Positions 39,271-43,163 of a stretch of 64,000 nucleotides of DNA are shown one piece after another. The number at the start of each line of letters is the position of its first letter. Position 1 is the first letter of the stretch. The position numbers and the translations under genes were made by a program. The stretch is from Dysosmobacter acutus (GTDB lineage: Bacteria; Bacillota; Clostridia; Oscillospirales; Oscillospiraceae), in the NCBI RefSeq assembly GCF_018919205.1, contig NZ_JAHLQN010000001.1:1240001-1304000 (forward strand), in the 5' to 3' direction. The notes below the pieces were generated by a model. That model was given only the letters and a program-made list of their open reading frames with translations, did not search any database and was not told the DNA's origin.

Positions 39271-39290
39271 ATAAGCAAGGAGGCGATTTG

Positions 39291-40073
39291 ATGTCATTCG
39301 GAGAACGGCTGAAAGAATATCGGGAAGCGCGCGGATATACGCAGGAGCAGCTTGCGGAAATCATCGGCGTTGCTAAAACGACAATAACCGGGTATGAGCG
39401 CGGAAATCGTGCGCCGGATGTGAAGAAAATCAAGCGGCTGGCGAAAGCGCTTGGAATTACGGGTGATGAACTGTTAGACACAGGGCTTGGACAAAACGAA
39501 ACCCCGCTCTATTCGAGCGGGGCAATGAAGATTGCAAAGGACTATGACGCTTTGGACGTTTGGGGAAAACAGGCCCTGCGGGAGCTGGCGGATACCGAAC
39601 GCCAACGTATGGAGGCGGAAGCCAGGTTCCTGGACGATACGGAGGAGCCGGTTGCCAAGGCCCCCAAGGTCATCCCCCTGTACCTCTTTCCTGCCGCTGC
39701 GGGCTATGCCGCTCCGGCGTTTGGGACGGACTTTATCCCGTTGGCCCTTGAAAAAAACGACCCGCAGGGGGCCGATTTCGCCGTCAGGATACAGGGCGAC
39801 TCTATGGAGCCGGTTATCACAGACGGTTCCAAGGTCTTCTGCAATCACGACCCCCTCAGTGATGGGGACATCGGCATTTTCTCCGTGGACGGCGGCGAGA
39901 TCGTCTGCAAGCAGTACCACTATGATTCGGCGTTGGGAATGACCTATTTGTTCTCTATCAACCGGGATCGCTCTGACGCCGATGTGGTGATTACCTCCTC
40001 CGGCGGACAAAATCTTGTCTGCCTTGGCCGGGTCATCGTGAAAGGCCGCTATCCTCTGCCCGGCGAGTGGTAA
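39291..40073 (+). CDS. LexA-like phage repressor (XRE plus S24 peptidase)
   Basis: The 260-residue CI-type repressor has an N-terminal XRE domain (ERLKEYREARGYTQEQLAEI, TTITGYERGN). A C-terminal S24 autoprotease domain follows, with probable cleavage at Ala-Gly in FPAAAGYA, Ser in IQGDSMEP and Lys in GEIVCKQY. RecA-stimulated self-cleavage would induce the prophage. GCAAGGAGGCG lies before the ATG at 39291. It has a consensus promoter covered by its own operators. Confidence 0.94.
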   Translation: MSFGERLKEYREARGYTQEQLAEIIGVAKTTITGYERGNRAPDVKKIKRLAKALGITGDELLDTGLGQNETPLYSSGAMKIAKDYDALDVWGKQALRELADTERQRMEAEARFLDDTEEPVAKAPKVIPLYLFPAAAGYAAPAFGTDFIPLALEKNDPQGADFAVRIQGDSMEPVITDGSKVFCNHDPLSDGDIGIFSVDGGEIVCKQYHYDSALGMTYLFSINRDRSDADVVITSSGGQNLVCLGRVIVKGRYPLPGEW

Positions 40074-40214: not shown

Positions 40215-40243
40215 TTGACAAGACCTTGAAAACTGCATATAAT
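40215..40243 (+). promoter_or_regulatory. Promoter of the type III antitoxin RNA
   Basis: TTGACA and TATAAT are both exact consensus, with a 17-base spacer. This is as strong as the tRNA promoter. Confidence 0.92.
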
Positions 40244-40249
40244 GAGGGT

Positions 40250-40402
40250 GCAAGGGAAACCTTGATGATGTGGCCGCAGAGCACGGCCACCGCGGGAAAA
40301 AGAAAGCTCAATTGATGATTTGCTCGTAGAGCGCGAGCAGCATAATCAAAAGAAAGCTCAATCGATGTGAAGCCCTCTGTAGAAATACAGAGGGCTTTTT
40401 TT
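40250..40402 (+). ncRNA. Repeat-containing antitoxin RNA of a type III toxin-antitoxin system
   Basis: The transcript would run from a consensus promoter to a terminator, about 150 nt, with no credible ORF. It holds about 2.5 degenerate repeats of 46-50 nt. AAAAGAAAGCTCAAT occurs at 40297 and 40348 with an exact 50-bp offset. A weaker first copy begins GAAACC at 40256. Each repeat has a hairpin: GTGGCCG / CGGCCAC (40270-40290) and TGCTCG / CGAGCA (40321-40339). A-rich joints AAAAAG match the sites at which ToxN-type enzymes process their antitoxins. A GNRA hairpin CAAGG-GAAA-CCTTG opens the RNA. Confidence 0.82.
40371..40402 (+). terminator. Terminator between antitoxin RNA and toxin gene
   Basis: AGCCCTCTGTA-GAAA-TACAGAGGGCT is followed by seven T, 12 bases before the toxin ATG. 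In type III loci such a terminator sets the antitoxin:toxin ratio by partial read-through. Confidence 0.93.
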
Positions 40403-40413
40403 AAGGAGAAGCT

Positions 40414-40827
40414 ATGCGCCTGATTATTCTGTCAGAAAAATTCTATGATGAATATGGGCAGTGTCCTGAGATTTTGCAGAAAAAGACGCGGCCCTATGTG
40501 TGCCTGGAGGTAAAGATTCGTTCCAGCACCTTTGCTATCCCATTCCGGCATCATATTCGACATAAGCACGCATTTTTCACTTGTGGAGAGTGTGGACTGG
40601 ACTATACGAAAGCTGTCGTTATCCGGGACAAAAGCTACATATCGGCGGAGTGCCCAAGAGTTGAGCAGGCGGAGTTCAATGCGCTGAAAGGCATGGATAG
40701 CCGGGTCAGAAAGGGTCTGGCCGATTATATAGCGCTGTACAAAAAGGCGTCACGGTACAAAGAGAATCGGCACTATGCGAACATTTTGCAATGCAGTGCG
40801 CTGCAGTATTTTGAAGAGTACATCTGA
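40414..40827 (+). CDS. Type III toxin, TenpN/CptN-like endoribonuclease
   Basis: The 137-residue protein has the conserved pattern of TenpN/CptN (ToxN superfamily) toxins. It starts with MRLIILSEKFYDEYGQCPEI and RPYVCLEVKI. The FAIPFRHHIRHKHAF core and GLDYTKAVVI follow, with a C-terminal ending similar to CSALQYFEEYI. These enzymes cleave RNA and are held inactive by their repeat RNA. AAGGAGAAGCT precedes the ATG. The promoter, tandem repeats and terminator directly upstream complete the locus. In a prophage it could act in abortive infection against other phages or in prophage maintenance. Confidence 0.88.
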   Translation: MRLIILSEKFYDEYGQCPEILQKKTRPYVCLEVKIRSSTFAIPFRHHIRHKHAFFTCGECGLDYTKAVVIRDKSYISAECPRVEQAEFNALKGMDSRVRKGLADYIALYKKASRYKENRHYANILQCSALQYFEEYI

Positions 40828-40848: not shown

Positions 40849-40902
40849 ATGAAACTGTCCAAAGCTAAAAAACCGCTGTCTGCCAACTGGAACATCATGT
40901 GA
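40849..40902 (+). CDS. Very short ORF (17 aa), possible leader or remnant
   Basis: AAAGGAGCGCAAC precedes a 17-codon frame, MKLSKAKKPLSANWNIM. It may be the left-over 5' end of a lost gene. Evidence is only the ribosome site. Confidence 0.25.
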   Translation: MKLSKAKKPLSANWNIM

Positions 40903-40935
40903 TAGTGAAAAGTTGTAAATAAGTGCCGCGACCCG

Positions 40936-40981: not shown

Positions 40982-41167
40982 ATGGAAGAAGAACAACTGT
41001 TTGCATTTATGCAGGCAACGGAGCAAGCCGCTTCCCGGGGTTGCTGCCAGGATGGTAAGAAGCATCCCTTCCGCTGTCCACTGTGCGGCGGGATTGCAAC
41101 CGTATGTGCAGGGCGCGGGCGCTCAGGAAGCATGTGCAGGCACTGTAAAATTATGGCGTTGAAATAA
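40982..41167 (+). CDS. Small zinc-ribbon phage protein
   Basis: The 61-residue protein has Cys pairs CPLCGG and CRHCK. AAGGAGAG lies 8 bases before ATG inside a hairpin. It is of unknown function. Confidence 0.6.
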   Translation: MEEEQLFAFMQATEQAASRGCCQDGKKHPFRCPLCGGIATVCAGRGRSGSMCRHCKIMALK

Positions 41168-41300: not shown

Positions 41301-42410
41301 ATGGCAAATGCAAAAAAAGCAAAGTACTATCAGAGGCCGGACGGGCTGTTCGAGAGCATCCGCACCATTGGCGGCAAGCGGGTGGCCTTCCGGGCCAAGA
41401 CATGCAGGGAGGTGGACCGCAAAATTCTGGAATACCGGGAGGAACAGGCCGTAGGCCGAACCTACGCCCAAGTCCTGGAGGACTGGTGGCGCCAGAAAGA
41501 ACCGGAGTGGGCACCCTCCAGCGCCAGCGCCTACCTCAGGGCCTTCCGCCGGGTGAAGGAGGCCCTTGGGCCGCTCCGCATTCGGGAAATGCGGCCATTG
41601 GATGCTGTGCGCTACTTGAGCGCAATGAAGGACCATGGATACCGTTCCGGTACCGTGGGGTTGGATCTATCCGTCCTGAAGATGTCCTGCAGCTGGGCCG
41701 TGATCCACGGAGACGTAGATATTAATCCTTGCGCGGAGGTAAGGCAGCCCAAGGGGCTCTATGCAAAAAAGCGGATGCCATTGACGGACGAACAAATCGC
41801 CGCCGTGACCAGCTGCCGCACCGGCGAATGGTGGCTTCTTGGACTAATGCTGCTCTACACCGGCTGCCGCCGCGGCGAGCTGCTGGCCCTGCGCTACGAG
41901 GACATCGACCGCAAGGCCAAGCGTATCCACATCCGCAAGAAGCTCTCTTACGTCAACGGCAACATTCCCGTCGTGGAGGATCACACCAAGTCGGAGGCCG
42001 GGATGCGGGACATCCTGCTGCTGCCGATCCTGGACGACGCGATTCCCCGGGACAGGATCGGCCTCATCTTCCACGAGCCGGACGGTTCGCCTCTGAAGAT
42101 GGCCACCATGGCCCGAATCTGGAAACAATACTGCCGTCAACTTGGATTCGTGGAATATGAAGAGCTGCCTTGCAGGGACGGAACGCTCCGCAGGAAGGAA
42201 ACTTTCCCGGTCACGCCACACTGCTTCCGCCACACCTTCGCCACCATCTGCTTCGAGGCCGGCATCGACCCAAAAAGCACGGCGGCCATGCTGGGACACG
42301 CCGACGAGGGGTTGACGCTCCAGCTCTACACTCACCTGAGCGCCCAGCACAAGGCCTCTGAGTCCGAAAAGCTTGCCGCCTATGTGGAGCGGGTTGAGGC
42401 CGGCTCGTAA
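41301..42410 (+). CDS. int: Tyrosine integrase
   Basis: The 369-residue phage integrase has a short arm-binding start and a SAM-like core-binding domain (about 55-155), then the catalytic domain. Catalytic residues are Arg in TGCRRGELLAL, His and Arg in TPHCFRHTFAT, His in LGHADEGLTL and Tyr in QLYTHL. CAAGGAGGTTTATTTT precedes the ATG. Phage attP sites usually lie next to int. Here the 3' side holds the Microviridae fragment and the right inversion breakpoint, so the former attL may be near. Confidence 0.95.
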   Translation: MANAKKAKYYQRPDGLFESIRTIGGKRVAFRAKTCREVDRKILEYREEQAVGRTYAQVLEDWWRQKEPEWAPSSASAYLRAFRRVKEALGPLRIREMRPLDAVRYLSAMKDHGYRSGTVGLDLSVLKMSCSWAVIHGDVDINPCAEVRQPKGLYAKKRMPLTDEQIAAVTSCRTGEWWLLGLMLLYTGCRRGELLALRYEDIDRKAKRIHIRKKLSYVNGNIPVVEDHTKSEAGMRDILLLPILDDAIPRDRIGLIFHEPDGSPLKMATMARIWKQYCRQLGFVEYEELPCRDGTLRRKETFPVTPHCFRHTFATICFEAGIDPKSTAAMLGHADEGLTLQLYTHLSAQHKASESEKLAAYVERVEAGS

Positions 42411-42560
42411 CTGTGTATTTTCTGTGTAGATTGTTGATGCAAAGCTTTGCGGGAATTTACACGAATCCGTTTCGGGCAAATCGCCTGCGCCCATTGGTAT
42501 CGCTGCATTTCCGTGCAGAGCGTTGCAAGAGTGTGCAGATTGCGGCGGAGAGGGTTTAAT
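42411..42560 (+). other. Candidate att region after int
   Basis: The 150 bases between int and the VP2 fragment hold small inverted repeats (GCAAAGCTTTGC; CTGCA...TGCAG) and GTGTA repeats that could be integrase arm sites. No core sequence can be defined without the other attachment site. Confidence 0.35.
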
Positions 42561-43163
42561 ATGTCCAATACTGCTCATCAGCGTGAGGTAAAGGATTTAC
42601 AAGCTGCCGGTTTGAATCCTGTCTTGTCAGCTATGGGAGGTAACGGCGCCGCCGTTACCTCCGGAGCTACAGCTTCTGGTGTTACTTCTTCCGGTGATAA
42701 AGGTCAGGTCGATACATCTGCCAATTCAGCTATTGTTTCTCTGCTCGCTTCAATGCTGAATGCGCAGAATCAGTTGGAGATCAGCCGTAATAACGCCCAG
42801 GCTAATCTTGCTGTAGCCGACAAGTATAATGCTATGTCAGAGATCGTTGCTGGTATTAACGCCAATGCTACCCTCGGAGCTGCTGGCATTCATGCTGGTG
42901 CCACTCGCGATGCAGCTGCCATGTCCTCAGCTGCGACCAGGTATGCGTCGGATAATGCCCGTGCTGCCTCTCAGTATTCATCTGATACTCAGAAGTATCT
43001 TACTGAAAAGTATCCTTCTTCTAAGTATCAGTTTGGCTCTAAAGTTCTGAATGATATTTTAGGTGAAAATGCTCTTTCTGATATTGGTCAATCTGCTAAG
43101 AGCTTGTGGAATCGCATTACTGGTAATACCCGTATGGATACGAGTTCAGCTGGAAGAAGGTGA
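42561..43163 (+). pseudogene. Microviridae VP2 (DNA pilot/minor capsid) fragment
   Basis: The 200-residue frame begins with SNTAHQREVKDLQAAGLNPV, the hallmark of gokushovirus VP2 proteins. A Gly/Ala/Ser-rich stretch and a long helical region follow (SMLNAQNQLEISRNNAQANL). In intact VP2 proteins this motif is preceded by about 50 or more residues with a hydrophobic Gly-rich segment, which are missing here. Codon use is T-rich at third positions, unlike the GC-rich neighbours. No VP1 or VP4 gene is seen, so it is a piece of an ssDNA phage captured beside the integrase. Confidence 0.85.

Follow-up and report, generated by a model that had tools for sequence, protein, structure and literature searches.

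The locus at positions 40215–40827 of the window (the whole 64 000-nucleotide stretch of Dysosmobacter acutus DNA that was analysed) is, with little room for doubt, a complete TenpIN-class type III toxin–antitoxin operon carried by a prophage, neutralisation of the toxin being proposed by analogy. It consists of a promoter, two tandem RNA units, a strong terminator and a toxin gene, in that order (Table 1). The TenpIN system type and the RNA family to which the units belong, 6A RNA, are both already known, and the window locus adds one member. What changes is the standing of the RNA: Rfam 6A, listed as an sRNA without a function, gains a probable job as a TenpIN antitoxin, a pseudoknot can be added to its structure, and 6A matches become usable for finding TenpIN systems.

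Organisation of the operon and its prophage setting

The leader hairpin lies immediately 3′ of the predicted transcription start, and similar leader hairpins are present at two other loci (L002 and L010). Between the RNA array and the toxin gene, the terminator reads AAGCCCTCTGTA-GAAA-TACAGAGGGCTT followed by T5; it was recognised from the sequence and its fold, a simple consensus scan not having listed it. RNA folding of positions 40247–40403 gave −57.9 kcal/mol (z = −5.2 against dinucleotide shuffles, none of 200 being as low), and a ribosome-binding site (AAGGAGA, 40403–40409) precedes the toxin ORF. Matches to the PyrR leader and other weak Rfam matches on the locus were below threshold, overlapped the terminator, and were discarded. 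A preliminary description of this DNA had proposed a consensus promoter, a repeat RNA, a strong terminator and a toxin in type III order, together forming a complete type III locus in the immunity region of a prophage; each element was found where it had been placed, and gene order, the TenpIN toxin family and the toxin fold all agree with that reading.

Table 1. Features of the operon and of the flanking prophage genes in the window
Feature	Position	Strand	Basis
CI-like repressor of the prophage (HTH + S24 peptidase)	39288..40073	+	Pfam HTH_3, Peptidase_S24; phrog_4 transcriptional repressor
Sigma-70 type promoter of the RNA–toxin operon, TTGACA-17-TATAAT	40215..40243	+	12/12 consensus matches; predicted from sequence
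Small 5′ leader hairpin, CAAGG-GAAA-CCTTG	40251..40264	+	Sequence and RNA fold
Predicted antitoxin RNA unit 1 (6A RNA)	40263..40312	+	R1 40.1 bits; Rfam 6A 27.3 bits, below gathering
Unit 1, stem S1	40270–40276/40284–40290	+	
Unit 1, pseudoknot S2, GAGC with GCUC	40279–40282/40306–40309	+	Alignment
Unit 1, A-rich loop	40291–40305	+	Alignment
Predicted antitoxin RNA unit 2 (6A RNA)	40313..40363	+	R1 70.6 bits; Rfam 6A 62.1 bits, above gathering
Unit 2, stem S1	40320–40326/40334–40340	+	
Unit 2, pseudoknot S2, GAGC with GCUC	40329–40332/40356–40359	+	Alignment
Unit 2, A-rich loop	40341–40355	+	Alignment
Intrinsic terminator, 12-bp stem, GAAA loop, T run	40370..40402	+	Sequence and fold
TenpN-family toxin, 137 aa, predicted endoribonuclease	40414..40827	+	NCBIfam NF047358; structure model
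Tyrosine integrase of the prophage	41301..42410	+	Pfam Phage_integrase 4e-18; phrog_1 1.4e-60

The operon lies between the CI-like repressor and integrase genes, flanked on one side by genes for phage replication; genes for the portal, tail fibre and endolysin are located further on. This position favours an alternative in which the operon, type III by descent, mainly serves prophage addiction (the killing of cells that lose the prophage) rather than phage exclusion, as does the behaviour of CptIN, the closest class with gut hosts, which stabilises plasmids but showed no phage abortion in E. coli (PMC4627078). However, the class is able to act on phages, as Photorhabdus TenpIN aborts coliphages (PMC5086642); 6A–TenpN loci, moreover, are often found on chromosomal contigs, and the toxin-less phage copies described below suggest that phages encounter the toxin. 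Addiction as the main service is therefore a possibility to be taken seriously, if the less probable one. The assignment of the locus to the type III operons is common to both readings.

Two small frames were seen between the toxin and integrase genes: one of 17 aa with its own ribosome-binding site (MKLSKAKKPLSANWNIM; 40854–40904), and one encoding a CxxC-rich protein of 61 aa (40982–41167). Directly after the integrase gene (42447–43163), a protein matches Microviridae-type pilot proteins (phrog_34374, phrog_22637); by this sequence resemblance, the region is possibly a piece of an integrated microvirus.

The toxin belongs to the TenpIN family and is predicted to have the ToxN fold

The toxin scored 137.8 bits against the NCBIfam TenpIN equivalog model NF047358 (cut-off 90; E = 2.8e-40), in agreement with its earlier description as TenpN/CptN-like. 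A structure model built on 32 relatives from the collected loci had a mean pLDDT of 95.2. By itself, Foldseek gave ToxN_Bt (Bacillus thuringiensis) as the best match with an E value of only 0.07; the fold was settled by structural re-alignment, which was limited to the chains already ranked by Foldseek. Z scores of 13.7 for ToxN_Bt, 13.2 for AbiQ, 12.2 for ToxN_Pa (Pectobacterium), 12.1 for ToxN_Ec (E. coli) and 10.7 for CptN were followed by a drop to 7.6 for MazF. Comparison of a toxin model with the ToxN fold had been put forward beforehand as a check, and it was passed, the five best matches being three ToxN proteins, AbiQ and CptN (Z 10.7–13.7). The protein is thus a TenpIN-family type III toxin with a predicted ToxN/AbiQ/CptN endoribonuclease fold. 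Searches of Pfam and of PDB sequences returned no useful match to the toxin, no PADLOC 2.0.0 model matched it, and the single window toxin used as a query against the genome contigs found no related loci.

Decay of the toxin is seen at other loci. Its frame is broken in L040, L047 and L049, remnants are left in L009 and L043, and the array has been kept and the toxin lost in L002/L053, L029 and L010/L051 (the first two of these with the same array–integrase order as the window, the third with the integrase further on). The window gene might likewise be a decayed passenger in a locus that makes RNA only. Against this, its frame is full length and above the family cut-off, the model has a pLDDT of 95, and the residues invariant in the 32 relatives (F10, R26, P43, R45, G61, D63 and Y109) are all present, which makes decay of the window toxin highly improbable.

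The putative antitoxin repeat is 6A RNA, and its unit is predicted to form a pseudoknot

The array in the window comprises two units, of 50 and 51 nt; direct repeats of 50 nt (40262–40311 and 40312–40361) are 72% identical. The copies have kept their stems but differ at 28% of positions, for which reason Tandem Repeats Finder at score 30 reported no repeat at the locus. Rfam 6A (RF02925; gathering score 41.2) matched the second unit at 40316–40366 and, below gathering but in register, the first at 40266–40315 (E = 0.0024, for the short stretch searched). A hairpin-only covariance model, R1, recovered the second unit with E = 3.6e-19 and the first with E = 4.5e-11. About 2.5 units had been counted previously; the repeats and R1 give two complete ones, the remainder being the 5′ leader hairpin and a short 3′ remnant. 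Nor is this a new antitoxin variant, as had been thought possible: by sequence, the repeat of the window belongs to Rfam RF02925, and the same type of unit occurs in many other genomes.

Relatives were collected from genomes of the same family and class, from a pattern scan of genomes naming the organism, and from viral contigs; the scan placed 6A RNA in Flintibacter, Fournierella, Faecalibacterium, Lachnospiraceae, Treponema and Sphaerochaeta, among others. Chance pattern matches (L026, L042, L069, L072, L073, L077 and L081), which had no stem or lay inside genes, were rejected. An alignment of 71 copies of 6A from 45 loci was obtained with the hairpin-only model. The hairpin was 96.9% paired, with covariation at all seven pairs. 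In addition, pairing of four of its loop bases (usually GAGC) with four 3′-end bases (GCUC) was present in all 71 copies (100%), with both-sided changes at two of the four pairs (GAGC/GCUC, GGGC/GCCC and GAAC/GUUC); when the partners were slid by 1–3 columns as a control, pairing fell to 20–40%. Because the patterns by which most copies were found prescribe GAGC/GCUC, evidence for the pseudoknot comes from the variants only; several of these (L005, L007, L008, L059 and L061) came from Rfam searches that require no such pairing, and unit 1 of L008, outside the alignment, has a further variant, GGAC/GUCC. On this covariation the 6A unit is a hairpin with loop-to-3′-end pairing, i.e. an H-type pseudoknot. 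Solved type III antitoxins are all H-type pseudoknots, formed by a hairpin loop pairing with the 3′ end (PMC4627078); in 6A RNA the same feature was found by covariation in 71 copies, as a predicted rather than a solved structure. Both window units share with RF02925 the hairpin and the conserved AAAGAAAGCUCA 3′ part, but the Rfam consensus line holds the hairpin only and the family is typed as a plain sRNA; to this the present analysis adds a partner toxin and a pseudoknot supported by covariation.

The A-rich joints had been taken as typical self-processing sites. The A-rich stretch (AAAAGAAA) sits, however, between the hairpin and the 3′ strand of the covarying pseudoknot. Since it lies inside the pseudoknot, it is probably the long loop of that structure and would be left uncut, a cut there opening the fold; the processing site is probably elsewhere, more probably between ...GCUCA and the next GAUGAU.

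6A RNA accompanies TenpN genes

Among 400 genomes of the host family, 6A RNA was found in 10 and TenpN in 12; six held both, adjacent to one another (hypergeometric P = 3.4e-8). Where both occur, the 6A array is directly before the toxin gene on the same strand, with a terminator between them, and this order is constant. Distances between toxins and between toxin-proximal repeats were correlated over 27 loci (Mantel r = 0.42; 0 of 5000 permutations), a value for which linkage alone could suffice. Where TenpN genes lack 6A, different two-unit repeats take the same place, so this place is regarded as an antitoxin slot. Two-unit arrays of 47–57 nt are likewise present at TenpN relatives on plasmids of Leptotrichia, Pseudomonas and Enterococcus; judged by eye, the units of Leptotrichia (GUAUA/UAUAC) and Enterococcus (CGUC/GACG) could form the same kind of pseudoknot. 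The adjacency of 6A and TenpN, together with the other repeats in the slot, points to 6A RNA as a probable sequence class of TenpI antitoxin. The TenpI format, as published in PMC12373285 (citing PMC5086642), is 50 nt repeated 2.1 times, which the length and number of the window units fit.

The operon resembles TenpIN of Photorhabdus luminescens in toxin family, operon order, the terminator between RNA and toxin, and its two units of ∼50 nt. It differs in having an antitoxin of the 6A class (the original TenpI sequence being outside the comparison), in being prophage-borne, and in its hosts, which are gut-type Clostridia and others. With ToxIN, AbiQ and CptIN it shares the toxin fold, an H-type pseudoknot antitoxin and the array–terminator–toxin order, but toxin sequence identity is ∼10%, and the ∼50-nt units compare with 34–36 nt in ToxI, which has more of them, and 45 nt in CptI. 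The 6A RNA itself is reportedly described in Weinberg 2017. In the literature covered by our search, RF02925 or 6A RNA went unmentioned in this sense, and an earlier link between 6A and TenpIN is possible.

Other arrangements were also noted. In the same bacterial family, L014–L017, L024 and L025 have TenpN relatives with at least two other two-unit antitoxin classes, one of which (e.g. GAGTGACGGTTCTGACTC...TTGACCGA) has a possible CGGT/ACCG pseudoknot. In L061 and L066, the intact TenpN frame is followed downstream, at ∼740 nt from the 6A array, by a second, weak TenpN-like frame (21.7 bits). On a Selenomonadaceae contig, a solitary 6A unit (L050:2655–2703) is directly upstream of what appears, by eye, to be a HigBA-like type II toxin–antitoxin pair.

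Proposed working of the operon

By analogy with the studied relatives, a single promoter would yield a transcript of two ∼50-nt 6A units. With most transcripts ending at the terminator and a smaller share continuing into the toxin gene, antitoxin RNA would be in excess. The toxin, as an endoribonuclease, would cut the precursor between units, and the resulting H-type pseudoknots would hold it inactive. Should new transcription fail, through phage takeover or loss of the prophage, the protein would outlast the faster-decaying RNA, and toxin released in this way would cut the RNA of cell and phage. Processing by the toxin, neutralisation, the attenuation ratio, and phage exclusion or prophage maintenance are all inferred from those relatives; a PDB search found no solved TenpIN complex, so the mode of toxin–RNA binding is likewise drawn by analogy.

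Toxin-less 6A units in phages

A genuine 6A unit was present in 29 viral records; in 11 of them an intact TenpN gene came directly after it, and in the other 18 none did. A TenpN search of the whole of these 18 records, some of which may be fragments, found none (0/18) and recovered two positive controls. A blastn search with the 6A consensus in named phages and plasmids gave no true match, its sensitivity being low for a 51-nt query. In 17 toxin-less copies, the hairpin was 99% and the pseudoknot 100% kept, with compensatory changes in three of the four pseudoknot pairs (GGGC/GCCC in L071, GAAC/GUUC in L080 and AAGC/GCUU in L083).

These copies occupy about eight different contexts: between portal and scaffold or major head genes (L078, L079, L084 and L085), after capsid-region genes (L027, L033, L075 and L076), in phages of 122 and 134 kb (L080 and L071), directly before tRNA-Met (L083), before a tRNA-Leu-like sequence seen by eye, for which ARAGORN made no call (L034), close to genes for tail proteins and endolysin (L086), and in an integrase-bearing temperate phage (L032). 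Conservation in the L027 group covers the unit and the part 3′ of it but does not extend to the 5′ neighbours, which are unrelated. Several integrase-side orphans (L002/L053, L029, L010/L051, L043 and L009) resemble toxin–antitoxin loci that have lost or are losing their toxin. Toxin decay was rejected as the source of the copies in structural regions, where a profile search of short frames found no TenpN remnant.

The many copies without a toxin, and the location of phage copies in tRNA and ncRNA clusters, might be taken to mean that 6A serves a different purpose as an independent sRNA of phage or host, its place beside TenpN being secondary. This is very unlikely given the constant adjacency, order and strand wherever the two occur together, with a terminator between them, the unrelated two-unit repeats of like build that take the same place before other TenpN genes, and the co-variation of repeat and toxin. 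If 6A RNA is instead an antitoxin, complete toxin-less units may be phage RNA decoys against TenpN, often beside other toxin-neutralising RNAs in ‘antitoxin RNA islands’, a proposal for and against which we find the balance even. A precedent is the pseudo-ToxI of phage PhiTE, a toxin-less antitoxin-like repeat that, once expanded, blocks the toxin (PMC3475682). The likeness is that of a toxin-less repeat of antitoxin type carried by a phage; however, wild-type PhiTE has 1.5 out-of-phase repeats, which cannot form a full pseudoknot, whereas 6A occurs as complete units in phages of many groups. If the decoys work, mimicry of type III antitoxin RNAs would be a widespread and permanent means of counter-defence among phages, not an escape seen rarely in the laboratory, and the partners of unknown toxins could be sought where phages carry small RNAs in clusters.

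Other RNAs beside the toxin-less units

An abiF RNA follows the toxin-less 6A unit by ∼280 nt in L075 (2275–2640) and L076 (1913–2278). In L080 (6789–7013), a skipping-rope RNA lies 35 nt after the second 6A unit, and in L032 (9987–11364) skipping-rope and FuFi-1 RNAs accompany the toxin-less 6A. The abiF RNA is a proven antitoxin that neutralises AbiF in the manner of a type III antitoxin (PMC12373285), and a pseudoknot is shown for skipping-rope RNA in Rfam (PMC7779021). Abi_2 and PBECR2 were sought in the phage records with abiF or skipping-rope RNA, and neither was found. By analogy, this points to phages maintaining toxin-neutralising RNAs in sets from which the toxins themselves are absent. 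A sub-threshold DUF3800-VIII match was also seen near the toxin-less 6A unit of L034.

In the host family, a PBECR2/PBECR3-type nuclease gene is followed at 31–42 nt by skipping-rope RNA (RF02924), encoded on the same strand, at five loci (L127, L128, L129 and L132, on G008:C3, G102:C42, G001:C34 and G086:C37, plus G008:C59). All five PBECR2 places have skipping-rope RNA alongside, in four genomes that were picked for holding both; other skipping-rope copies are without a PBECR neighbour. Going by this arrangement, skipping-rope RNA may be an RNA antitoxin of PBECR-type nucleases.
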